Below, in pieces: positions 4,487-60,772 of a DNA stretch of 64,000 nt (positions within the stretch are counted from its first letter, which is position 1; each line of letters begins with the position of its first letter). The notes under the pieces are model-generated. The model did not search any database and was not told the DNA's origin. It saw only the letters and a program-made list of their open reading frames with translations. Location: positions 1-64,000 of the forward strand of contig JACZWL010000012.1 in NCBI GenBank assembly GCA_022572185.1. The letters are read 5' to 3'. Origin of the DNA: Pseudomonadota bacterium (lineage in GTDB: Bacteria > Pseudomonadota > Gammaproteobacteria > Steroidobacterales > Woeseiaceae). The translations under genes and the position numbers were made by a program.

Positions 4487-5137
4487 TTGTCCACCGATCC
4501 CCAGCCTGTTGCGGAGAATGGCCAGTCCTTGACTCAGGCAGAACGCACCGCGATTTCGGACAAAGCCATGATCGATGCTGCGATCGAGCTGATCCTGGAG
4601 CACGGCACCGACAAGACCACTTTGCAGGCGATCGGCGAAAAGGCAGGCTATAGCCGTGGTCTCGCCACCTACCGTTTCGGATCCAAAGCAGGTCTTTATG
4701 ACGAGGTATGCAAATCAATCTCCAGGGACTGGCTCGGGTACCTGAAAGAAGGGGTCGGTGACAAAGTGGGCATCGACGCCATGTGCACTGCTCTCGATTC
4801 ATTTTTCCAGTTTGTGTCTGATTCGCCGCGCGACGCACGGGTACTGCAAATTCTTTATTGCGGTGCGGCGAGTCCCAGGTCCGAATACCGGCAGACTTCC
4901 ATCAACATACATCGGCGCCAGCAGGACGACGTTGCCGACTGGGTGCGCGCCGGGATGAAAACCGGCGAAATTCGCAAAAATGCAGATCCCAGAAGTATCG
5001 CTGCACATTACATCGCCTACATATCAGGAATGACCTATCTCTGGCTGATCGATCCGAAATCGGTCGATTTCAGGAAGGCCAACGAAGATATGAAAGAGCA
5101 TCTGCAACTTTCACTCGAGAACAGGACAGCAACATGA
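4487..5137 (+). CDS. TetR/AcrR-family transcriptional regulator
   Basis: Protein of 216 aa from a TTG start with a CGAGG-type SD. The N-terminal HTH spans about residues 25-70 ([30 protein letters not shown], the typical TetR motif). A helical ligand-binding domain follows. Its stop overlaps the thiolase ATG (ATGA, 5134-5137). It sits in the middle of the acyl-CoA genes and behind an inverted repeat, so it probably represses this cluster until an acyl-CoA is present; this is inference. Confidence 0.88.
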
Positions 5138-6342
5138 CAGACGCATATATTTTCGATCACGTTCGCAGCCCGCGCGGCCGCGGCAGATCGAACGGCGCAC
5201 TACACGAAGTAAAACCGATCGACCTGGCGGCGCAGGTACTCGCCAGCCTCAGAGATCGCAATGAACTCGATACCAGCAAAGTCGACGATGTCGTATTCGG
5301 CTGCGTCATGCCGGTCGGCGAGCAGGGTTCCTGTGTCACCCGACTCGCGGTATTGAATGCCGATTACGATGAAAGCGTGCCCGGAAAGCAAATCAATCGT
5401 TTTTGCGCATCGGGCCTCGAAGCAATCAACAGTGCGGCAGCCCAGGTCATGTCGGGGCAATCCGATCTCACCATTGGCGGCGGCCTCGAATCCATGTCGA
5501 GAGTACCGATGGGTTCGGATTCCGGTGCCATGCACGCTGATCCCGCGTTCGCCTATAAATCCTATTTCGTGCCTCAGGGAATCGGCGCGGACCTTATTGC
5601 CACCAAGTACGGTTTCTCGCGCGAAGACGTTGACACATATGCCGTTGAGAGCCAGCGACGTGCCACGAATGCCTGGCACAAGGGCTATTTCGATAATTCG
5701 GTGATACCGATCCAGGACCGCATAGGCATGACGTTGCTCGACAAGGATGAGCACATTCGTCCCGGTACGACCATGGAGGACCTCGCAGGGCTCAAGGCAG
5801 CATTCGAGGTGCCGGGTGAACAAGCCGGTTTCGATTCGGTTGCTTTGCAGAAGTACCCCGAGCTTGAGGCCATCAATCACGTGCATACAGGTGGCAATTC
5901 GAGCGGCATTGTCGACGGATCTGCTGCGGTATTAATTGGTTCCAAAGATATGGGTGATGCGCTCGGCCTCAAGCCACGGGTGCGCATCAAGGGCTTTGCG
6001 TCCATCGGAACTGATCCGACAATCATGCTGACAGGACCGGCGCCATCGGCGGAAAAAGTGCTCAAGCGCTGCGGAATGACCACAGACGACATTGACTTGT
6101 TCGAACTCAACGAAGCGTTCGCATCCGTCGTTATGTTGTTCATGCAAAAACTCGGCATCGACCATGACAGGATCAATGTCAACGGCGGTGCGATCGCGAT
6201 GGGGCATCCTTTGGGCGCGACCGGAGCCATGATTTTCGGCACGGTACTGGACGAACTCGAGCGCCGGGATCTGAATACCGCGCTGATTAATTTATGCGTC
6301 GGTGGTGGCATGGGTACCGCGACCATCATCGAACGCGTATAG
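5134..6342 (+). CDS. Acetyl-CoA C-acyltransferase (thiolase)
   Basis: Protein of 402 aa with the full thiolase triad: nucleophile Cys91 ([11 protein letters not shown]), His358 ([15 protein letters not shown]) and Cys388 (CVGGGMGT). It carries out the last step of beta-oxidation, thiolytic release of acetyl-CoA or propionyl-CoA. The ATG overlaps the TetR stop. It is followed by the FadB/FadJ-like protein, which lacks a thiolase domain, so the two probably act as a pair. Confidence 0.92.
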
Positions 6343-11608: not shown

Positions 11609-11614
11609 TAACGC

Positions 11615-11722
11615 TATCGCAGGGGTGGCCTGTCCGGCCTGAGATCCGTGGCGCTGCATGAGGCGGCGTCGATACGGGAACCCTTAGAACCTGACCCGGT
11701 TAATGCCGGCGTAGGAAGAGGA
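11615..11722 (+). promoter_or_regulatory. TPP riboswitch (THI element)
   Basis: The conserved THI-box blocks occur in order: AGGGGTGGCC (11621-11630), GGCCTGAGAT (11636-11645), ACCCTTAGAACCTGA (around 11680-11694), then CCGGTTAATGCCGGCGTAGG (11696-11715). The variable arm lies between CTGAGAT and ACCCTT. The closing-stem strand runs into GGAAGAGG, which is the SD of the TonB receptor gene. Binding of thiamine pyrophosphate would therefore mask translation start. Negative control by TPP is established for this class; the translational mode here is inferred. Confidence 0.96.
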
Positions 11723-11729
11723 TTCTCAA

Positions 11730-13856
11730 ATGCTGCCAATTTCATTTTTCCAGCGACGCCCTGTCGGCGCTGTCGTTATTTTTTTCCTGCCCGTAACACT
11801 ACTGCCAGATTTTTCGGCCGCAGAAGAAATACTGGAGGAGATTATCGTTACTGCGGATTTCCGCGGGCGTACCGCGGCGGAGTTGCCCGCAAGCATTACT
11901 GTCCTTGACCGCAAGATGATTGAGCAGGCGGCCGTGCAGCACTTCGAAGAACTGGTCTTCATCGTGCCGAATTTCAACTGGTCAGGCGACGGAAACCGGG
12001 CACGGTATTTTCAGATTCGCGGCGTGGGCGAACTCGAACAATACGAGGGCGCACCAAACCCATCCGTTGGTTTCCTGATCGATGATATCGATTTCAGCGG
12101 GATAGGAACGATCGCGACGCTGTTCGATGTGCAACAGATAGAAGTACTGCGAGGGCCGCAGGGGACGCGCTTTGGCGCAAACGCGTTGGCCGGTCTCGTG
12201 TATGTGCAGAGTGCTGAACCGAGCGACGAGTGGTCCGGCAATATTCGCTTCGGCCTTGCCGATGATGACGCATTTTCGGGTGGTGTCGCATTCGGCGGCC
12301 CAATTGCGTCGCCTGGTGGAAACACAAGCTTTAGATTCAGCGTGCACCATTATCAAAGCAACGGTTTCCGCCATAACGCGTTCCTGGGAAGGGACGACAC
12401 GAACGGCCGTCATGAAACCACCGTCCGCGGCAAATTGCTTTGGCAGACCGATGCCAACTGGACTGTCAAGTTGACCATGATGTACACCGACATAGACGAT
12501 GGTTACGACGCGTTTGCCGTGGATAACAGTTTTACCGTGCTTTCCGACCGGCCCGGGAAGGACGCGCAGGAGAGTGTTGGATCGTCGTTGAAAGCAGTGT
12601 GGCATGGCGCTGATCATTTCAGCCTGACGTCGATTACTTCTTTCGCAAAGTCAGATATCGATTTCAGCTTTGACGCAGATTGGGGTAACCCGGACGCGTG
12701 GGCTCCGTTCACGTATGACTTCATTTCAGTCAACGACAGGGAGCGCAGTACGTTGAGCCAGGAATTTCGACTGACGTCGAGTGACGGCGGGCGAATCTTC
12801 AATGCATCCACGGACTGGTTGGTCGGCGTGTATGTCACCAGGCTTACCGATGACCTGGAGACGCTCAACCAGGGCTTTTACTTTGATCCGTTCTTCGATT
12901 TTTCGCTTGGTCTCGATGACTCGTTCAGCAGCGCTTATGAAGCGATCAACGCAGCTTTGTTCGGCCAGCTCGACTTTAATTTCGGAGATTCCAGTCAGCT
13001 TACGCTCGGGGTTCGTCTCGAAGAGCGTTCGACAGATTATGCCGATTCCTCCGGACTGTCATTGGGTCCCGGGGAGACGATGGTCGGTGGCCAGCTGACA
13101 GTTAGTCACGGCTTCTCCGAGGCACTGACTGGCTTCGTCAGCCTGTCGAAAGGCTATAAAGCCGGCGGCTTCAACCTGGGGCTGGTGCCGGATGACCGGC
13201 GCGAGTTTGAGCAGGAAGCGCTGTGGAATCTGGAAGCCGGGATCAAGTCCTACTGGCTCGATAATGCCCTGGTTTTCAATGCTTCGGTTTTCTACAGCGA
13301 ACGCAGCGACCAACAGGTCAGGACCTCGTTCCAGTTGGTTCCGAATGATCCCGCGTCATTTGTCTTTTTCACGGATAATGCGGCCAAAGGGCAGACTGTC
13401 GGGTTCGAGGCGGATCTCCGCTGGCAACTGAACGAAGCATGGCAGTTTTACGCAAACGCAGGACTCCTGAAGGCCGAGTTCGAAGAGTTCTCGACGCCAC
13501 AAGTAGACCTAAGCGGGCGCAGGCAGGCGCACGCACCGGATTACACGGTCGCACTTGGCGGCGTTTATCGTCACCCGAGCGGTCTGTTTGCACGGCTGGA
13601 TTATTCTGCCCGTGACGAGTTTTACTTCGACGTGAGCCATGATCAGTTGTCCCTGGCCGCCGAAATAGTCAATGCACGCATTGGATATGATGCCGACCGC
13701 TGGTCAGCACAGCTCTGGGCCCGGAACTTGTTTAACGAACAGCATGCCGTCCGGGGCTTCTATTTCGGCAACGAACCGCCAGACTTCCCGGACAAGCTCT
13801 ATTTGCGTTACGGTGATCCCCGTCAGATCGGCATTACTTTTGATATGAGGTTTTGA
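11730..13856 (+). CDS. TonB-dependent outer-membrane receptor, predicted thiamine/precursor uptake
   Basis: Protein of 708 aa with a signal peptide (~1-31), a TonB box-like EEIIVTAD (36-43), a plug domain (LPASITVL...LRGPQGTRFGANALAG) and a 22-strand barrel ending in a terminal Phe (FDMRF). It lies directly under the TPP riboswitch, whose 3' side contains its SD. It is followed at 1 bp by the YkoF-like gene and then the PnuC-type permease. By context it imports thiamine, its phosphates or a pyrimidine precursor across the outer membrane. The family assignment is firm; the substrate comes from regulation and neighbours. Confidence 0.9.
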   Translation: MLPISFFQRRPVGAVVIFFLPVTLLPDFSAAEEILEEIIVTADFRGRTAAELPASITVLDRKMIEQAAVQHFEELVFIVPNFNWSGDGNRARYFQIRGVGELEQYEGAPNPSVGFLIDDIDFSGIGTIATLFDVQQIEVLRGPQGTRFGANALAGLVYVQSAEPSDEWSGNIRFGLADDDAFSGGVAFGGPIASPGGNTSFRFSVHHYQSNGFRHNAFLGRDDTNGRHETTVRGKLLWQTDANWTVKLTMMYTDIDDGYDAFAVDNSFTVLSDRPGKDAQESVGSSLKAVWHGADHFSLTSITSFAKSDIDFSFDADWGNPDAWAPFTYDFISVNDRERSTLSQEFRLTSSDGGRIFNASTDWLVGVYVTRLTDDLETLNQGFYFDPFFDFSLGLDDSFSSAYEAINAALFGQLDFNFGDSSQLTLGVRLEERSTDYADSSGLSLGPGETMVGGQLTVSHGFSEALTGFVSLSKGYKAGGFNLGLVPDDRREFEQEALWNLEAGIKSYWLDNALVFNASVFYSERSDQQVRTSFQLVPNDPASFVFFTDNAAKGQTVGFEADLRWQLNEAWQFYANAGLLKAEFEEFSTPQVDLSGRRQAHAPDYTVALGGVYRHPSGLFARLDYSARDEFYFDVSHDQLSLAAEIVNARIGYDADRWSAQLWARNLFNEQHAVRGFYFGNEPPDFPDKLYLRYGDPRQIGITFDMRF

Positions 13857-50503: not shown

Positions 50504-53395
50504 TTACACTCTTGTCTTTTCTGCCGTGCCGAGAACGGCGGCGTAGCGTGACGCCGCCCGTTTGTTGGTCCGCCTGCGAATGAAGCCGATCAGGAGCAGA
50601 CCGAACAGCGCCAGGCCATAGTTGAGGTACTCCCAGAACAGCTGGGATTCCCTGTCCAGGGGCTTCAGGGTGCGTGAGAAGTGGGCCCGGCCGCGGATGG
50701 CAAGCAGACCGCGATCTTCCAGGGACCAGTCGATGGCGTTCTCCACCAGCTGCACCGGCTTGAGGTAGCGGGTGCCCATCCCGGATGCGGCCAGATCCAG
50801 CATCGTGTCGGTGAGGAAGCTGCTGGATGCGAACAGGATGATGCGCGCCGACTCGGGGGAGCGGTCGATCACCCGGGTGATGCGCGATTCCTTCTCTGCA
50901 TCTTCCGCGGGCTCTCCACCGGCATCCGCCTCCTCTTCGTGGGTGACCAGTGGCGAGGGCTTGTCCTTGAAGTACGAGTCGAAACGGCCCTCTACCGCGA
51001 CCGCCAGCAGTTGCGGGCCCCGCTGATCGCCAACCGGAAAACCGAGTTCGCCATGCATCTGGAAGTCGGGCTGGATCTCCATGCTGTCGGAGGCCCAGGC
51101 CTGGTCCGAGCTTTGCAGCAGGCGAGTCACCTTACGATCCTGGTTCTTCTGCTCGTCCACGGTAATGGGTGACGGCCAGGTCATGGTGACCTGGTCGATG
51201 CCCTCGGTCATGCCGCCTTCCTGCACGATGCCATCACCACGGATATCGGCAAAATACGGGTAGTTCACCATCCGCGTTTCGTTGAACACATAGCCGGCGA
51301 CACGGCGACTGACCGGTATGGGAAAAGACGCATTCAGTGGGTCGAGCACCATCTGTTCTTCCAGCATGATGCCGTGGTGGCTCAGCCAGTCGATCAAAGC
51401 GGATTCAAGTTTGCGGACGGATAACACCTCCCCGTGTTCGATATCGAAGGGTGATGTCGCGATGACCACGGTACCGCCACGCATCAGGAACTGGTCCACG
51501 GCAAACAGCTGTTTAATATCCAGCTTGTCCGGCGATGCCAGCAGCAACAGGTCGGCCTCATCCGGCACCCGGCCGTTCTTCAGGTTGGTGGAGGCGAGGT
51601 TGTGTTCCTCGGCGAGGGTGTTGCTTAGCCAGTCGAAACGCTTGCCGCTTGCCGGCATGCCGAACATGGCCAGTGTCGAGGCAGGCGTGTGGAGCGCCAC
51701 GGTCTTCAGGAAGCCCCTGGAGAAGCGCTTGAGGGCAGCCTGGATGCCTTGCTCCAGACCGGCTTTTTCAAACTGTTCCGGCAGCGGTATCTGCACGATG
51801 CGCCCATTCCCCTCCAGGGTCATGTAAAACCAGAAAGTGTTGGTGTCCGTCAGGCTGGCTACCATGGGGCGAAAGCCGAAATCACTTTTGAGCTGCCTGG
51901 CCAGGATGCCGTCCTGCGCGTCGGGGTCGCGAATATCGATAGTCAGCGTGCCGCCCGAGCGCTCGACCAACTCAGTCAGTACCGCGTCTAACTCTTTGCG
52001 AAATAAGCTGAGCACCTCGGGCAGTCTCTCATCGTCCGAGATGTAGCCCTTGAAGCTGACCGGATGCGGAATATTCTCGAACAGCTCGCCGGTCCCCTGA
52101 TAGGCAAAAAGGATCTTCTTGATCGACTGGGTAAGATCGTACTCGGGGTTGCGCAGTTCCACCTCCAGATCGCCCTCACTCTGCGCCCTGACCTCGATGA
52201 GATCACCAAAATCGAGCACCTGATGCTGGTCACCGTACTGGATCAGGATATTGAAGTAGGAGTTGATCACCGTTGCCTGATACTTGCTGGCGAACTGGAA
52301 TGGCACGGGCTGAATATCGTATTTTTCGTTCGCCTCCTGCTCCAGCTCCGGATGCTCCTGGGGATCGATGAACTCCACCCGCACTCTGCCCTCCGCGGCG
52401 ACCGCGTACTCTTCCAGCAGGTCGCGCAGGCGCGGCACCAGTGGCGCCAGCAGCGGATGAGTCTGGGCGCTGAAATAGCCCCGGATCAGCATCGGCTCTT
52501 GCAGCTGCGCCAGATAACTCCGGGTGGCTTCCGAGATGGAGTAGACATTGCCCCGGGTCAGGTCGGCGCGAACCGAAGCCACCGGCGCCAGCCACAAATT
52601 GGCGGCCAGAAAATTGGCCGCCAGCAGCGCGCTGATGAGCCCCCAGCGCCGATGGTTGGCATTGCTCGCGTTACCGGCCCAGCGCAGCCACTCCAGCGCA
52701 AAGACGTTTAGCGTGAGAAAGACGCCCACCAGGCTCAGGTAGTAGTACAGATCGCGCAGGTCGATCACGCCGCGGGTAATGGAGTCGAAGCGTGAGCCCG
52801 AGCCCAGAAGTTTGAGAAACTCCGAGGCCCGGTTGCCGAACAGTCCGGTCAGCGCATCGGTGCCCAACAGATAGAAGAGGCCGCAGACCACTGCCGTCAG
52901 AATCAGGCTGACAATCTGATTCGCCGAGCGGGCGCTGATGAACAGCCCGATAGCCGCGTAGGCCGCTGCCAGAAACAGGGTGGCGAGATATCCCCCGAAC
53001 ACCGGTCCCCAGTCCAGCGGGCCGAGCAGGCTGACGGTTACCGGCAGGGGGAGGGTCAATAGCAGAGCCACCGCCACCAGGCCAAGGCATGCCATGAATT
53101 TGCCGAGCACCATGTGGTAGCTCTTGACCGGCACGCTGAGCAAAAACTCCAGGGTGCCGGAGCGCCGTTCCTCCGACCACATGCGCATGGTAACGGCCGC
53201 CACCAGGAAGATCAGCAGCAGTGGCATCCATTCGAACAGGGGCCGCACATCGGCGATATTGCGAGCGAAGAAAGTTTCTACCCAGAAGAACACAAACAGG
53301 GTCACGGCCAGGAAGGCGCCGAGAAAGATAAAGGCAATGGGGGAGAAGAAAAAGCCGGCAAACTCCTTGCGCGCGATGCGCAGCATATTATTCAT
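50504..53395 (-). CDS. ABC-2 permease fused to a GldG-like domain
   Basis: Protein of 963 aa. The first ~240 residues form six membrane helices of an ABC-2 permease (RKEFAGFFFSPIAFIFLGAFLAV...). The next ~650 residues form an extracytoplasmic GldG-like region (ADLTRGNVYSISEATRSYLAQLQEPM, PQEHPELEQEANEKYDIQPVPFQF, LLASPDKLDIKQLFAVDQFLMRGGTVVIA). A final membrane helix lies near ~935. It joins the functions of GldF and GldG in one chain. It is transcribed with its ATPase 5 bp upstream. Confidence 0.9.
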   Translation of the reverse strand: MNNMLRIARKEFAGFFFSPIAFIFLGAFLAVTLFVFFWVETFFARNIADVRPLFEWMPLLLIFLVAAVTMRMWSEERRSGTLEFLLSVPVKSYHMVLGKFMACLGLVAVALLLTLPLPVTVSLLGPLDWGPVFGGYLATLFLAAAYAAIGLFISARSANQIVSLILTAVVCGLFYLLGTDALTGLFGNRASEFLKLLGSGSRFDSITRGVIDLRDLYYYLSLVGVFLTLNVFALEWLRWAGNASNANHRRWGLISALLAANFLAANLWLAPVASVRADLTRGNVYSISEATRSYLAQLQEPMLIRGYFSAQTHPLLAPLVPRLRDLLEEYAVAAEGRVRVEFIDPQEHPELEQEANEKYDIQPVPFQFASKYQATVINSYFNILIQYGDQHQVLDFGDLIEVRAQSEGDLEVELRNPEYDLTQSIKKILFAYQGTGELFENIPHPVSFKGYISDDERLPEVLSLFRKELDAVLTELVERSGGTLTIDIRDPDAQDGILARQLKSDFGFRPMVASLTDTNTFWFYMTLEGNGRIVQIPLPEQFEKAGLEQGIQAALKRFSRGFLKTVALHTPASTLAMFGMPASGKRFDWLSNTLAEEHNLASTNLKNGRVPDEADLLLLASPDKLDIKQLFAVDQFLMRGGTVVIATSPFDIEHGEVLSVRKLESALIDWLSHHGIMLEEQMVLDPLNASFPIPVSRRVAGYVFNETRMVNYPYFADIRGDGIVQEGGMTEGIDQVTMTWPSPITVDEQKNQDRKVTRLLQSSDQAWASDSMEIQPDFQMHGELGFPVGDQRGPQLLAVAVEGRFDSYFKDKPSPLVTHEEEADAGGEPAEDAEKESRITRVIDRSPESARIILFASSSFLTDTMLDLAASGMGTRYLKPVQLVENAIDWSLEDRGLLAIRGRAHFSRTLKPLDRESQLFWEYLNYGLALFGLLLIGFIRRRTNKRAASRYAAVLGTAEKTRV

Positions 53396-53400
53396 CTTGA

Positions 53401-54336
53401 TCAGCTACCTCCCTGTGCCGAGATTTCACTGAAGATCTGTTCCAGGTCGTGGCGCTCGGGTTGCAGGGCGTAGAGTTTCCATCCCTCTGTCGCAATGCGG
53501 CTGGCAACGATGTGCGCTGCCTCGGCGGGATCGTCCTCTTCACCCAGGTCAAGAACATAGCGGTGCCCCGGTCCCTGTTTGGCCATTGGCTCTACCGACG
53601 CGATGCCCTCGACTGAATTCAGCAGTTCGAGCGCACGCTCTGGTCCGGCATCGACGGCCACCAGCAGGCGCTTGCCGGCCAGCAACTCGTCCATGGTGGA
53701 GTCCAGCACCTTCCGGCCATCGTGGATGATGATGACCCGGCTGCAGATCGCCTGGACCTCCTGCAGGATATGGGTCGAAAGGATGACGGTGGCGTGTTCC
53801 GCCAGGACGCGGATCAGGTCGCGCATGTGCTGCACCTGGGTCGGATCCAGGCCGTTGGTGGGTTCGTCGAGAATGAGCAGGCGAGGGTGATGCAGAATTG
53901 CCTGTGCCACCCCCACCCGCTGACAGAATCCCCGGGAGAGGGTCCCGATGGTGTCCGTTGCCTTGGACGAGAGTTCTGTTTTGACGATGGCCTCCCGTAT
54001 CCGATCGATCCGTTCGGCATCAGGAACACCGTGCAGCGTGGCAGCGTAATCGAGGTAATCAATCACCGTCATTTCGTAATAGAGGGGGTCATTTTCCGGC
54101 AGATATCCGATGCGCTGCTGGACGGCTTGGCGTTCGGTATTGATATCCAAACCGTCTATCTCAATGGAACCGCCAGTGGGTTCCAGGTAGCCGGTCAGCA
54201 TCTTCATAATGGTGGTCTTGCCCGCACCGTTGTGGCCAAGCAGCCCGACGATCTCTCCCGTGCCGATCTCGAAGGAGACCTGATCGACCGCAGTCAAGTC
54301 GCCGTAGGTTCGGGTCAAAGCTTCAACTCGTATCAT
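53401..54336 (-). CDS. ABC transporter ATP-binding protein (GldA-like)
   Basis: Protein of 311 aa from the ATG at 54336, which overlaps the HTH stop (TGATG). Walker A GLLGHNGAGKTTIMKML, signature LSRGFCQRVGVAQAI and Walker B LLILDEPTNGLDP are all present. A C-terminal ~80 residue domain ends the chain. It energises the GldFG-type permease encoded next. In Flavobacteria this system is linked to gliding, but in gammaproteobacteria the cargo is unknown. Confidence 0.9.
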   Translation of the reverse strand: MIRVEALTRTYGDLTAVDQVSFEIGTGEIVGLLGHNGAGKTTIMKMLTGYLEPTGGSIEIDGLDINTERQAVQQRIGYLPENDPLYYEMTVIDYLDYAATLHGVPDAERIDRIREAIVKTELSSKATDTIGTLSRGFCQRVGVAQAILHHPRLLILDEPTNGLDPTQVQHMRDLIRVLAEHATVILSTHILQEVQAICSRVIIIHDGRKVLDSTMDELLAGKRLLVAVDAGPERALELLNSVEGIASVEPMAKQGPGHRYVLDLGEEDDPAEAAHIVASRIATEGWKLYALQPERHDLEQIFSEISAQGGS

Positions 54337-54575
54337 CAAAAAGATTCCTGTTTTATTTGGCCGTCGTTACCGTTTTTGTTTGCTTGGTAGACGGCACCAC
54401 CAACCCCCTGACTCTTCATCCATATCTCGATGTAGCGCGCGTCAAAACGCCATGGTGACGCGATCCTGCATGCTGGAACGTCGCCATTCTGCACCATACG
54501 GCACAGTTTGCTGTGGCTGAGCTTCGAGTACCCGGCCAATTCACCAAGCGTAAGCCAGCTGTCGCCTGTCATCAT
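54336..54575 (-). CDS. Excisionase-type helix-turn-helix protein
   Basis: Protein of 79 aa. WLTLGELAGYSKLSHSKLCRMVQNGDVPACRIASPWRFDARYIEIWM is a MerR/excisionase-like winged HTH of the 'helix-turn-helix domain-containing' class. In-frame alternatives GTG 54578 and ATG 54572 surround the start chosen here. The stop overlaps the ABC ATPase start, so it is the first gene of the operon and is probably its regulator. A phage excisionase origin is possible, but no integrase is near. Confidence 0.8.
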   Translation of the reverse strand: MMTGDSWLTLGELAGYSKLSHSKLCRMVQNGDVPACRIASPWRFDARYIEIWMKSQGVGGAVYQANKNGNDGQIKQESF

Positions 54576-56460: not shown

Positions 56461-59400
56461 ATGAGACAGCTCTCGGTCCAGGACCTGTTTTTCAGTGTCA
56501 TCGCGACAGGGCTGGCAGCACTGGGTTCCGCAGCGGTTGCGGCGGAATATCGACTGGTGGTCGAGCTTCGCCCGGACCAGTCGCAAAGTCACCTGGAACA
56601 AATCACGGCCGAGGTTTTCGGCGCAAAAGCCGAGGTGTCGCCCATGTTCCGGGAGATCGATCCGGAGGACGATCCGTACGCGTTGCGCAATCTCTACACC
56701 GTGTACGCGGCTTCAGGCGATGCCTCCGAAAGTCCGTGGGATACGGCCTACCAGCTGCGTGACCGAGGTGATTTCCTGCGGGTCGAGCCGGACTACGAGG
56801 ATGTGCTCGTCGACCCGACCGCACGCGCGCTATTTTGCTCGAAAAGTATCGACGACGAGAGTACCGCAGATCCCGCCTGGTCATTGCTGGCGGTCAATGC
56901 CGATCAGGCCTGGAAGCTGACACCCCCGGAGAATGGTAAGCGTTTTGGGGAGGGCGTTCGGGTTTGTCATCTGGACACCGGCTGGTCAGAGCATGCAGAC
57001 CTGGACGCAGCGCGTCTCGATCTCGACAACGATTACGATATCCTCGACGAGGATGACAATGCGCAGGACCCGTTGAACTACCGCGGCACCCGGGGTCACG
57101 GGACCTCGACCGGCAGCGTGATCGCAAGCTCGGGAGGTATCGGCGAAAGCGGCGGCACCCTGCCGCCGGGCAAGATTACGGGGATGGCGCCCAAAGCGAC
57201 ACTGGTGCCGATGCGCAGCGTCAAGAGTGTCATTCAGTTTCTTGACAGCGATGTGGCCAAGGCGGTGCGGCGCTCGGTCGAGGCAAGCTGTGATGTCATC
57301 TCAATGAGTATCGGGGGAAGGATATTTTTTGGCCTTGAACGAGCGCTCATGGATGCGCTGCGTCATGAGGTGATACCGATCGCGGCGGCAGGGAATTGCG
57401 TCGGCTTCGTAGTGGCCCCGGCGGTCTATGATGCGACGGTAGCTGCCGCGGCGAGCAATGTCCGTGAGGTCCCATGGAGAGGGTCGTCGCGCGGTCGCTC
57501 GGTAGACATATCGGCTCCCGGAGAACGCGTCCACGTCGCCTGGAAAAAATCGCCCGAAGACCCATCCACCAATACCGCCCGCAGCGACGGAACGTCCTAT
57601 GCCGCAGCTTATACGGCTGGCGCCGCTGCGTTGTGGATCGCGTACCACGGTGAGCAGGCGATTCGTGAAGCCTACGGTTCGGGGACGCGAAAAGACCTGT
57701 TCGTCGAGCATTTGCAGCGCTCAGCCAAAACGCCGGACGGTTGGGATTCCAGCAAGTATGGTGCCGGGATTCTCGACGCTGCCGCCCTGTTGAGGAGCCC
57801 GCTCGGCCGCCCGGACGACAGCGCCCGCACGGCTGTTTCTCCGGTGCCCCATCTCGAGTTGCTGGCACGCGTCACGGGTCGTGACCGGGATCAGCTACGT
57901 GCCCGTCTGCAGGAACTGTTTGGCGCCGACAACTTTTCCGCAGCCATCGATCGATTTGGTCCGGAGCTGATGCACATCGCGGTACATCAGCCGGAATCTA
58001 TGCAAAGCATGCTGAACACCCTCGCGGGCGACGCAGATTCCAGCGCGACAGCGCGGCGAACAGCAAGGTTGGCGCTTGGTCAGCTGGGCTCGAAAACACT
58101 GATGCAGTCACTGAGTGATGCCGAACCCACCGTCGGCCGGCACGACAGCGCTCAGGCCGAGGCGAAGATCACTCAACGCGTGTTGCTCGAAATAGACCGC
58201 ATGCAAGGCACGCAACGGGTCCTGACCGAGCAGACTATCCGCGGCAAGCGCGTGTCATTGGCAGAAATATATCGATCCGCGGGCATTGAGCTGCGCATCG
58301 TCGAAGATCAAATCGACATTCCTCGCGCAGACTCGGTACCCCTTGCAGACCTGCATGCCCTGCTCAATACCAACCGATCGCTGACTGCCGAAGAGGGAGA
58401 GTGGCATGTCTACATGCTTGTGGTCAGCGAGGACGAAGACTCGCCCGACACGCTTGGAATCATGTTCGATTTTGGAGAGAACGATGCGAACGATATGCCA
58501 CGCGAATCTTTCGCCGTGTTTGAAACGGCTCACCGGGGTATGCCGGGTGGTGTAACCCGTGAGGTGCTCTTGACCACCGCGCACGAACTCGCTCATGTAT
58601 TCAATTTGCATCACACGGACTGGGATGGATCGAGCTTTACGCGTCGTGCCACCGTCGAGAGCTATAGCCTTACTGATACGGTCCGGTGGCGGCTCAGCGA
58701 CGCGAGTATTGAACACTTTCATTCTCACCCCAGCCGGTTGGTGATACCCGGGACCGGTAACCTGCCCTTCGGACTGATAACACAGGACCATGCAGATCGA
58801 CATAAGTCGTCACCGCGAGAGAATTATTCCGTCGTTCCGGACGACACGTCGAATCTGAACCGTCGCGCTGCCATTGACGCGTCCGCCGCGGTGAGGACCA
58901 GGCTGGCGGCCGTGAACGACGTTAGCGCCGAATCTCCGCTGCGACTCCGGATCGAGACCGCCAAAGATGTATACATCGTTGGCGAAGCAGTCTCGCTGAC
59001 CGTAGCGGTTGTAAATACCAGCGACACACCGCAGGACGTCATTCCATTGCTGTCTCCGGAATACGGCTTCCTGAACGTGCTGATCCGCGGCCCCAATCAG
59101 GACGAGTTCCAGCCGTTCAAACCGCCGGTCCTGAGAGGGGCGCGCATGGCCAGGTTGAGCAGGACATTGTCGCCCTATGACGTCATGATTGATGACGCGC
59201 GTGTATTCTTCAGCTCCGGGGGCTGGACCTTCGCGGCGCCGGGCGACTACGAGATTCAGGCGACTTTTCCCGCCGACACGGCGTTCTCAAGTGACATCAT
59301 CCGCAGCGAAACGCTACTCGTAACGATCGAGCCCCCGACCACGGAACCGACCAAACGCGCCAGCCGGCTGTTGTTCGAGAAGGGCGGCCTGCGCTTTGGG

Positions 59401-59805
59401 ACCGAGCAAGGTCTTTACTTATATATGGGTGGTGGCGATCACCTGAGCTTTGGAGCGGATCGGCTAAGGCAACTGGTGCGGGATTTCCCGCAGGCCGCGC
59501 AGGCGGATCCGGCAAAAGTCGCGCTGGCCAACGCGGCATTGCGGCCGACGACCGATCAGGCTCGCGGCGGCAAACCCGAGCCTCGTCTCGACGAGGCGCA
59601 GCAGTACCTGCGAGGCTTGCAGGAAACGGAGAATGTGCCCGGTGTGAGCTTGATGCGCGTGCAGCAACGGTTGATCAAGGAGCTGGAAGCCGACGGGCGA
59701 GACGCGGAAGCCAGGTCATTGCGTGAGGATTTCGCCGACGATCTGCAAAAGAGCAAAGACCTGCAATTCATCGATCGGGAAATTCTGGAGAGGGGATTTG
59801 AATAG
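56461..59805 (+). CDS. Secreted S8 subtilase fused to a metzincin-type metalloprotease domain
   Basis: Protein of 1114 aa with a signal peptide (~1-28) and a propeptide-like region (~30-115). The subtilase domain (~140-450) has catalytic Asp172 (HLDTGW), His213 (RGHGTSTG), oxyanion Asn312 (AAAGN) and Ser379 (SDGTSYAA). A helical linker follows. A second catalytic motif lies at 708-718: HELAHVFNLHH, i.e. H708-E709-xx-H712-xx-N-xx-H718, the metzincin zinc pattern with Asn where Gly is usual. A beta-rich domain (~823-960) and a helical module with LYMGGGD complete it. GAGG SD is 8 bp upstream. The next gene encodes a paralogue of the last ~290 residues. Confidence 0.88.
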   Translation: MRQLSVQDLFFSVIATGLAALGSAAVAAEYRLVVELRPDQSQSHLEQITAEVFGAKAEVSPMFREIDPEDDPYALRNLYTVYAASGDASESPWDTAYQLRDRGDFLRVEPDYEDVLVDPTARALFCSKSIDDESTADPAWSLLAVNADQAWKLTPPENGKRFGEGVRVCHLDTGWSEHADLDAARLDLDNDYDILDEDDNAQDPLNYRGTRGHGTSTGSVIASSGGIGESGGTLPPGKITGMAPKATLVPMRSVKSVIQFLDSDVAKAVRRSVEASCDVISMSIGGRIFFGLERALMDALRHEVIPIAAAGNCVGFVVAPAVYDATVAAAASNVREVPWRGSSRGRSVDISAPGERVHVAWKKSPEDPSTNTARSDGTSYAAAYTAGAAALWIAYHGEQAIREAYGSGTRKDLFVEHLQRSAKTPDGWDSSKYGAGILDAAALLRSPLGRPDDSARTAVSPVPHLELLARVTGRDRDQLRARLQELFGADNFSAAIDRFGPELMHIAVHQPESMQSMLNTLAGDADSSATARRTARLALGQLGSKTLMQSLSDAEPTVGRHDSAQAEAKITQRVLLEIDRMQGTQRVLTEQTIRGKRVSLAEIYRSAGIELRIVEDQIDIPRADSVPLADLHALLNTNRSLTAEEGEWHVYMLVVSEDEDSPDTLGIMFDFGENDANDMPRESFAVFETAHRGMPGGVTREVLLTTAHELAHVFNLHHTDWDGSSFTRRATVESYSLTDTVRWRLSDASIEHFHSHPSRLVIPGTGNLPFGLITQDHADRHKSSPRENYSVVPDDTSNLNRRAAIDASAAVRTRLAAVNDVSAESPLRLRIETAKDVYIVGEAVSLTVAVVNTSDTPQDVIPLLSPEYGFLNVLIRGPNQDEFQPFKPPVLRGARMARLSRTLSPYDVMIDDARVFFSSGGWTFAAPGDYEIQATFPADTAFSSDIIRSETLLVTIEPPTTEPTKRASRLLFEKGGLRFGTEQGLYLYMGGGDHLSFGADRLRQLVRDFPQAAQADPAKVALANAALRPTTDQARGGKPEPRLDEAQQYLRGLQETENVPGVSLMRVQQRLIKELEADGRDAEARSLREDFADDLQKSKDLQFIDREILERGFE

Positions 59806-59809
59806 CGTC

Positions 59810-60772
59810 ATGAACCTGTATCGAATCGCTGTTAACGGGAAGAAACGGACAGTCGCCGGGCTGCTGTACTGCCTGTTGCTGGCCATCAGCGCCTGTCAAA
59901 CTGACGGCGCCGGGGATGACGAATCTCCAGTCGGCGAAGCAACGGCCGATTCTGCAAGCGTTGCCGATGGCATGACGGAATCAGGAAAGCCGTTTTGTCT
60001 CGAGCTGGCGAGTGCAAGAGATCGGGTTCTACTCGGTGAGCCGCTCACGCTCATTGTCAGCTTGCGGAATTGCTCCGACGAAATGCGTAAGGTGCGCAAT
60101 CTGCTCGGGCCCGAATATGGTCTGCTGGGCATTGCGATCGGACACCGGGACTATGAGCAGGAGCAAGCATATTACCCCGCGGTGCGCAGGGATGGCCGGG
60201 GTAGAGGAGAGGTCGAACTCGCCCCCGGGAAGATGCTTGCAGCGACGGTGCCGGTCTATTTTGGCCGTGACGGCTGGCAACTTGATACGCCGGGCACCTA
60301 CACATTCCAGGCGGAGTATTTCGTCGATGAAATCTCACTGACGTCGAATGTCGTCATGGTCAACATCGAAAAGCCACAGCGTGAAGCCGATCTTTCGGCG
60401 GCACAAACGCTGATGAACTCCGGCGCAGCCACTTTTTACTATCTCGGTGGCGGCGACGAAAAAGGTGCTGCCGAACTTCGTGGTCTGGTTGCAGAACTGC
60501 CCGATAGCCCGTGGGCGGCATATGCGAGACTGGGGCTTGCGATTGATTCGGCGAACGATAAAGACAGTCTGTCCAGGGTGGAGGCATGCCGTGCGCTCGA
60601 AACATCGCTCGGCGAAATAGACCAGGACTGGATAATCGCGTTACGCGGATTCGAAACCCTGTTGAAATGCTTGCGTGAGAGCGGTCTGGAGTCGGAAATA
60701 CCACGCGTCACTGCCGATTTCGTGAGTCGCCATCCCCGTGCCGAAGCGACACTGCGGGCGCGCGGCAGTTGA
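59810..60772 (+). CDS. Lipoprotein paralogous to the C-terminal half of the preceding protease
   Basis: Protein of 320 aa from the ATG at 59810, 4 bp after the protease stop. Lipobox ISAC21 (LLYCLLLAISAC). Residues ~64-185 are a beta domain matching the protease's (LGEPLTLIVSLRN...LLGPEYGLLGIAI versus VGEAVSLTVAVVN...LLSPEYGFLNVLI). Then AATFYYLGGGDEKGAAELRGLVAELP matches the protease's GGGD module. A short TPR-like tail follows. It has no protease motif. It is probably a membrane-bound partner, inhibitor or substrate-binding unit; the role is inferred. Confidence 0.82.
   Translation: MNLYRIAVNGKKRTVAGLLYCLLLAISACQTDGAGDDESPVGEATADSASVADGMTESGKPFCLELASARDRVLLGEPLTLIVSLRNCSDEMRKVRNLLGPEYGLLGIAIGHRDYEQEQAYYPAVRRDGRGRGEVELAPGKMLAATVPVYFGRDGWQLDTPGTYTFQAEYFVDEISLTSNVVMVNIEKPQREADLSAAQTLMNSGAATFYYLGGGDEKGAAELRGLVAELPDSPWAAYARLGLAIDSANDKDSLSRVEACRALETSLGEIDQDWIIALRGFETLLKCLRESGLESEIPRVTADFVSRHPRAEATLRARGS

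Follow-up and report, generated by a model that had tools for sequence, protein, structure and literature searches.

A predicted exported protein joining an S8 subtilase to a metzincin-fold domain, with a paralogous lipoprotein encoded immediately downstream

A single open reading frame in the window, the 64,000-nucleotide stretch of DNA analysed here, encodes a 1114-residue chain in which an S8 subtilase domain is followed by a metzincin domain, an Ig-like domain and a helical, TPR-like tail. This one chain, exported to judge by its sequence, brings together two peptidase folds with two different active sites, both of them presumably active. The folds themselves are known; what is new is the combination of S8 with metzincin, the Met-poor clade to which the second domain belongs, and a partner lipoprotein derived from the protease itself. 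The reading that we favor, while putting its chances at about even, is that of an envelope unit in which a metzincin core would be the active element and the lipoprotein its cognate regulator, the subtilase having been added in one bacterial family.

Layout of the locus and rarity of the fusion

The same order of domains is repeated in two further members of the same bacterial family (G005 and G158, found among 296 genomes of the order), and a scan of a second collection returned these two records again, as L021 and L022. The features of the window to which we refer below are the following.

56461..59805 (+): exported S8-metzincin-Ig-TPR protein, 1114 aa, the whole ORF, with ATG at 56461 and stop at 59803-59805
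56461..56544 (+): putative Sec/SPI signal peptide, aa 1-28, ...AAVAA/EY, by eye from sequence
56545..56835 (+): N-terminal segment, aa 29-125, in the place of a subtilase propeptide, judged only by its position and its VEPD..DVL ending
56947..57810 (+): S8 subtilase domain, aa 163-450 (Pfam PF00082 Peptidase_S8, 2.3e-27, at aa 163-398)
56974..56976 (+): catalytic Asp D172, conserved in L021 and L022
57097..57099 (+): catalytic His H213, conserved in L021 and L022
57394..57396 (+): oxyanion-hole Asn N312
57595..57597 (+): catalytic Ser S379, within GTS in L021 and L022
57811..58164 (+): linker, aa 451-568
58165..58752 (+): metzincin domain, aa 569-764
58582..58614 (+): zinc-site motif HELAHVFNLHH, aa 708-718
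58615..58695 (+): expected Met-turn segment, aa 719-745, Met-free in the alignment and of low confidence in the model
58927..59340 (+): Ig-like beta domain of the protease, aa 823-960
59341..59802 (+): helical, TPR-like tail with a GGGD motif, aa 961-1114
59810..60772 (+): paralogous partner lipoprotein, 320 aa, with ATG at 59810, 4 bp past the protease stop
59894..59896 (+): lipobox Cys C29 (ISA-C, with Gln at +2), by eye from sequence
59987..60379 (+): Ig-like beta domain of the lipoprotein, aa 60-190
60383..60766 (+): TPR-like helical domain of the lipoprotein, aa 192-319

The first catalytic domain carries what defines peptidase family S8, namely the Pfam fold, the Asp, His and Ser of the triad in this order and the oxyanion Asn, all of them kept in three assemblies. 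Its best NCBIfam profile is that of the T7SS mycosins, which it matches at 5e-32 with 111 bits, under the cutoff of 278.75 bits, and no stand-alone close relative of the domain (E at most 1e-20) was found among 147 genomes of the order. The metzincin motif lies 330 residues further toward the C-terminus; on re-reading the ORF, both this motif and the D172/H213/S379 triad fall exactly where the first-pass annotation had placed them.

Among the three fusions, identity to the window is 75-77% in the S8 domain, 73-76% in the zincin, 67-70% in the Ig-like domain and 37-41% in the linker, which is the least conserved part of the chain apart from the signal peptide. Since the two catalytic domains show near-equal identities that are also the highest (73-77%), they are similarly constrained. 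The segment ahead of the S8 domain, aa 29-125, has no Pfam match and is 46-57% identical between the window and the other fusions.

How common is this architecture? No further S8-metzincin fusion was found in 299 genomes of the phylum, and with only two more in the order the fusion is real but rare, and was seen in one family. In the literature, as covered by open-licence papers, we found no description of a chain that joins S8 to a metalloprotease, nor of one with S8 ahead of a metzincin.

Two other parts of the window may be mentioned. A TPP riboswitch lies at 11611-11734 (+) (Rfam RF00059, 65 bits), and a 963-aa protein at 50504-53395 (-), in which an ABC permease is apparently joined to a long extracytoplasmic region that looks Gld-like by eye, adjoins an ABC ATPase at 53401-54339.

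The metzincin domain and its Met-turn

No Pfam or NCBIfam model matches the metzincin domain of the window above its cutoff. In particular, the score against Pfam Reprolysin_5 is 14.8-18.4 bits, below the cutoff of 27, and Pfam does not in this sense assign the domain to M12B; one relative, L053, does exceed the cutoff of Pfam Reprolysin_4 (27.1 vs 22 bits). An AF2 model of aa 569-1114 (546 aa) has a mean pLDDT of 65. A plain Foldseek search with this model returned mainly GH3 enzymes, via their Ig-like domains; VIA-align then resolved the domains separately and matched aa 569-764 (model residues 1-196) to structures of adamalysins, ADAM and ADAMTS at Z 8.4-10.5 over about 165 residues. As in metzincins, the modelled active-site helix follows a mixed sheet, with aa 717-743, a stretch that includes the third His as well as the segment of the Met-turn, not reliably modelled (pLDDT under 50). 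What is more, the PDB sequences hit by a profile of 16 relatives, at 4e-5 to 5e-4, include those of snake venom metalloproteinases, ADAMTS-1 and adamalysin II. In other words, the helix at 708-718 sits in an adamalysin/ADAM/ADAMTS-like fold rather than in a non-zincin one, and the earlier proposal that the second peptidase is a zincin is borne out.

The motif itself points in the same direction. In a protein of such length and composition, HExxHxxNxxH would be expected 1.9e-5 times by chance, and the metzincin pattern HExxHxx(G/N)xx(H/D) is conserved, with its His and Glu invariant, in 20 of 20 relatives; the ADAMTS consensus likewise admits Asn for Gly (PMC4448532). An alignment of 20 relatives has 169 gap-free columns, seven of which are invariant, and four of these seven are H708, E709, H712 and H718. 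The random chance of finding all four catalytic columns among the seven is about 1e-6 (35 in 32.8 million), a figure that should be taken as an upper bound on the force of the observation, as the relatives were partly found through the same motif.

The methionine of the Met-turn has been called invariant in metzincins, its purpose being unsettled (PMC1266349). From +1 to +32 past the third His, no Met is found in the window, in L021, in L022 or in L077, a relative from a genome of the phylum Acidobacteriota; the stretch leading from the third His to the following helix is Met-free in L077 and in the fusions, for which the initial remark on the lack of an obvious Met-turn was right. The zincin tree is divided into two clades (support 97/98). 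In one of them Met is present at the expected place in nine of nine members (e.g. SLSWMNYP, LTFMAYP), and in the other it is mostly gone. This second clade, of 11 diverged sequences, takes in the fusions together with L077 and the OmpA type; the OmpA-type L026 has a Met at +21, and several have one at +6. In MAFFT alignments the Met of the sister clade falls at about R729 or about S736, varying with the sequences used, and neither of the two is Met; the model is unreliable in this region. Because the Met-turn methionine is lacking, we regard the domain as a metzincin-fold relative rather than as a canonical metzincin. That said, H708, E709, H712 and H718, together with N715, are invariant in all 11 members of the Met-poor clade, and one can argue from the conservation of the catalytic Glu that the clade is still enzymatic.

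Relatives of the metzincin module and the partner lipoprotein

The metzincin-Ig-TPR unit is widespread, and its members differ in what they carry in place of S8. Relatives of the Steroidobacter type begin with a hydrophobic anchor and end in an OmpA domain, those of the Acidobacteria type have a beta-rich region at the N-terminus, and L077 has the unit with only a lipoprotein-like start, presumably a lipid anchor. In L051 (6656-10201, -), an M28 aminopeptidase (Pfam 3.7e-35) stands ahead of the module, and this is a second, independent double-peptidase architecture; the metzincin module has been joined to unrelated peptidases at least twice, to S8 in the window and to M28 in L051. Plasmid records add metzincin relatives from Halocatena, an archaeon, and from Caballeronia and Nonomuraea. 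Besides OmpA, M28 and the one Reprolysin_4 (L053), nothing in the scanned relatives rises above a Pfam or NCBIfam cutoff. Since no other relative has S8, its gain in the family of the window is a simpler explanation than its loss in L077, as judged from four genomes.

Some neighbors of these relatives deserve a note of their own. The Acidobacteria-type metzincins of L025, L028 and L029 have no obvious signal peptide, though their relatives are exported. A small conserved gene (...GFsND.v.v...) adjoins metzincins of this type (L025 11440-11841, L028 11487-11789, L029 6341-6772, L078 4780-5082 (-)) and is possibly a partner of their own. Downstream of the metzincin gene on the Halocatena salina plasmid (L082 5556-6325), Ig-TPR-like fragments are spread over separate frames, only one of them with a match to the profile (E 8e-5); they could represent a partner that has decayed or been split, and are not counted as a partner here. 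Directly upstream of the metzincin-partner pair of L077 there is a second metalloprotease gene, matrixin/astacin-like (4828-6156; HELGHALGFRH...SVMHYP; Pfam M10 1.5e-8), whose product starts in the manner of a lipoprotein.

Aligned with the protease tail, the lipoprotein of the window is 35% identical (E 2e-20), and the order of an Ig-like and then a TPR-like domain is common to both; the first-pass annotation was therefore right in describing a lipoprotein, 4 bp away, that repeats the C-terminal domains of the protease and has no catalytic part. A signal with a lipobox Cys is seen by eye in all three fusion loci, as ISA-C29 in the window, LVA-C in L022 and ITG-C in L021. In its AF2 model a low-confidence stretch (aa 1-56) precedes a part that is confident past residue 60, with pLDDT mostly 82-97 in the Ig-like domain and mostly about 90 or more in the eight consecutive helices that follow. 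The tail of the protease is helical in both AF2 models; we call it TPR-like by its appearance, no library match for it having been found.

The partner gene lies directly downstream of the protease gene in the window, in the other two fusions and in the S8-less L077; the order yielded no other instance of it, and relatives of the OmpA and N-beta types have the Ig-TPR tail with no adjacent partner. In a tree of Ig-TPR regions the four partners fall together in a single clade (99/96) and the protease tails from these genomes group apart, which indicates a single old duplication, with the pair inherited or transferred together ever since. As L077 has the partner but no S8, we attribute this gene to the metzincin unit and not to the subtilase. 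Consequently, the first-pass picture of an S8-metzincin locus with a lipoprotein stands as far as the two folds and the paralogue are concerned, whereas the wider unit turns out to be metzincin-Ig-TPR with its lipoprotein, S8 being a matter of one family only.

Does the fold of the partner suggest what it does? The closest solved folds of its Ig domain, by VIA-align, are RbmA, the N-terminal part of AsaP1 (Z 10.3) and the intracellular proteinase inhibitor IPI of Bacillus (3isy, Z 10.1), the three falling within Z 10.1-10.4. The Ig-like domain of the protease (model residues 256-391) finds the same three, at Z 10.2, 8.5 and 9.8, respectively. However, Ig folds are common and unrelated ones reach Z 8.2-8.8 against the lipoprotein domain, so that the resemblance to the inhibitor exceeds the background by only 1-2 Z. 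Sequence offers no match to PF12690 (BsuPI), either in the lipoprotein (to E 10) or in the protease tails (to E 1). Two of the three closest folds have a connection with peptidases, as would fit a regulatory role, though their margin over other Ig domains is small. IPI inhibits S8 subtilisins and is reported to be inactive on metallopeptidases (PMC3901451).

A proposed mechanism and its relation to known systems

In the envelope reading that we favor, the locus would be a two-gene unit of the cell envelope. The first gene would supply an exported metzincin core, M12B/adamalysin-like, followed by an Ig-like and TPR-like docking tail, with an S8 subtilase placed ahead of the metzincin in this bacterial family only. 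The second would supply a lipoprotein that arose by duplication of this tail and has since diverged; with a probable tether in the outer membrane, it would bind the peptidase via the shared Ig-TPR surface and restrain or switch it at the cell's own envelope. Both the binding and its inhibitory effect are inferred, as is the activity of the two sites; the partner may compete with the protease or regulate it. A more specific version, in which a metzincin lineage active without its Met-turn methionine is checked by a tail-derived lipoprotein and, in one family, has captured a subtilisin to become a double peptidase of two classes, is tentative, and we would sooner expect some part of it to fail.

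Would our conclusions be different if the metzincin domain were a pseudo-enzyme, a zinc-bound scaffold left after the loss of the Met-turn, with S8 as the only working peptidase? The Met-free segment of the fusions and L077, set against nine of nine in the sister clade, speaks for this, as does the PrtC mutant with Met replaced by Ser, which was too unstable for isolation (PMC1266349). That said, the effects of Met-turn mutations elsewhere range from mild to severe, and in another metzincin exchanges of Met for Leu or Ser had only minor effects (both as given in PMC1266349); what is more, E709 is as invariant in the clade as the three His, and a structural zinc site needs no Glu. We consider a pseudo-enzyme improbable, while giving it real weight. 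The lipoprotein, for its part, could be a surface receptor that tethers an otherwise soluble protease by heterotypic Ig-TPR contact, as the first-pass annotation had suggested. Type I-looking signal peptides on the three fusion proteases, lipoboxes on their partners and the Ig-TPR domains common to the two all fit this; the protease of L077, on the other hand, itself begins like a lipoprotein (its lipobox, VICC, being imperfect and judged by eye) and has the partner nevertheless. For this reason tethering is weakened as a general role of the partner, and we think it unlikely.

Gene order and lipoprotein topology also recall the Listeria pair Mtz-Tim, in which Tim, the lipoprotein encoded next to the exported metzincin Mtz, is cut by it and set free (PMC8235301), and by analogy the partner may be a dedicated substrate of the metzincin, whose cleavage would free the Ig-TPR part from the membrane; the low-confidence residues ahead of its folded domain would agree with this. 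The partner is, however, a paralogue of the enzyme's own tail, with which docking or competition agrees at least equally well, and we take a substrate role to be rather doubtful. A further analogy concerns the subtilase. Furin, of S8B, activates ADAM and ADAMTS zymogens in trans, and the S8 domain might act as an activator within the chain, cutting the linker and so freeing or maturing the metzincin. The order of S8, linker and metzincin and the poor conservation of the linker would be expected in this case, whereas the linker has no Cys for a cysteine switch, and the short pre-metzincin segments of L077 and the OmpA type, which have no S8, argue that the metzincin needs no long prodomain; an in-chain activator, too, seems to us distinctly unlikely. 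Finally, each of the three fusions lies in a draft, multi-contig assembly, and one could suspect that an assembly or frameshift artefact has joined two genes. The same continuous frame is present in three separate assemblies, from different genera of one GTDB family, with 64-70% identity in the zincin-tail part, and we discard this explanation as scarcely credible.

If the envelope reading holds, the locus is a peptidase whose probable partner arose by copying its own docking tail. Moreover, a Met-poor clade that keeps its zinc and catalytic residues, standing beside a Met-bearing sister clade, amounts to a natural test of what the methionine does.

How does the locus compare with known systems? 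With the S8A subtilases the window shares the complete triad, the oxyanion Asn, the Pfam Peptidase_S8 match and a mycosin-like profile, and it differs from them in its fusion to metzincin and tail domains and in a mycosin score that stays under the cutoff. The second domain resembles adamalysin, ADAM and ADAMTS (MEROPS M12B) in its predicted fold, its HExxHxx(G/N/S)xxH motif and its PDB profile matches, yet it scores under the Pfam and NCBIfam cutoffs, and the fusions lack the Met-turn Met, no disintegrin or thrombospondin modules having been found either. The zinc endopeptidase AsaP1 (PDB 2x3a), whose N-terminal domain is a propeptide, matches the lipoprotein Ig domain with this part over 114 residues; there the Ig-like domain precedes the catalytic one, unlike the metzincin-Ig-TPR order seen here. 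The likeness to the BsuPI/IPI inhibitor (PDB 3isy, PF12690) lies in an Ig-like fold that aligns at Z about 10 over 112-116 of 117 residues, to which the lipoprotein adds a TPR-like domain and a lipid anchor. Closest in genetic layout is Listeria Mtz-Tim (PMC8235301), with an exported metzincin and a lipoprotein gene immediately after it; Tim, however, is described as TIMP-like in its predicted structure and no second peptidase is described as part of Mtz, whereas the partner in the window is a copy of the Ig-TPR tail of a protease that carries two peptidase folds.
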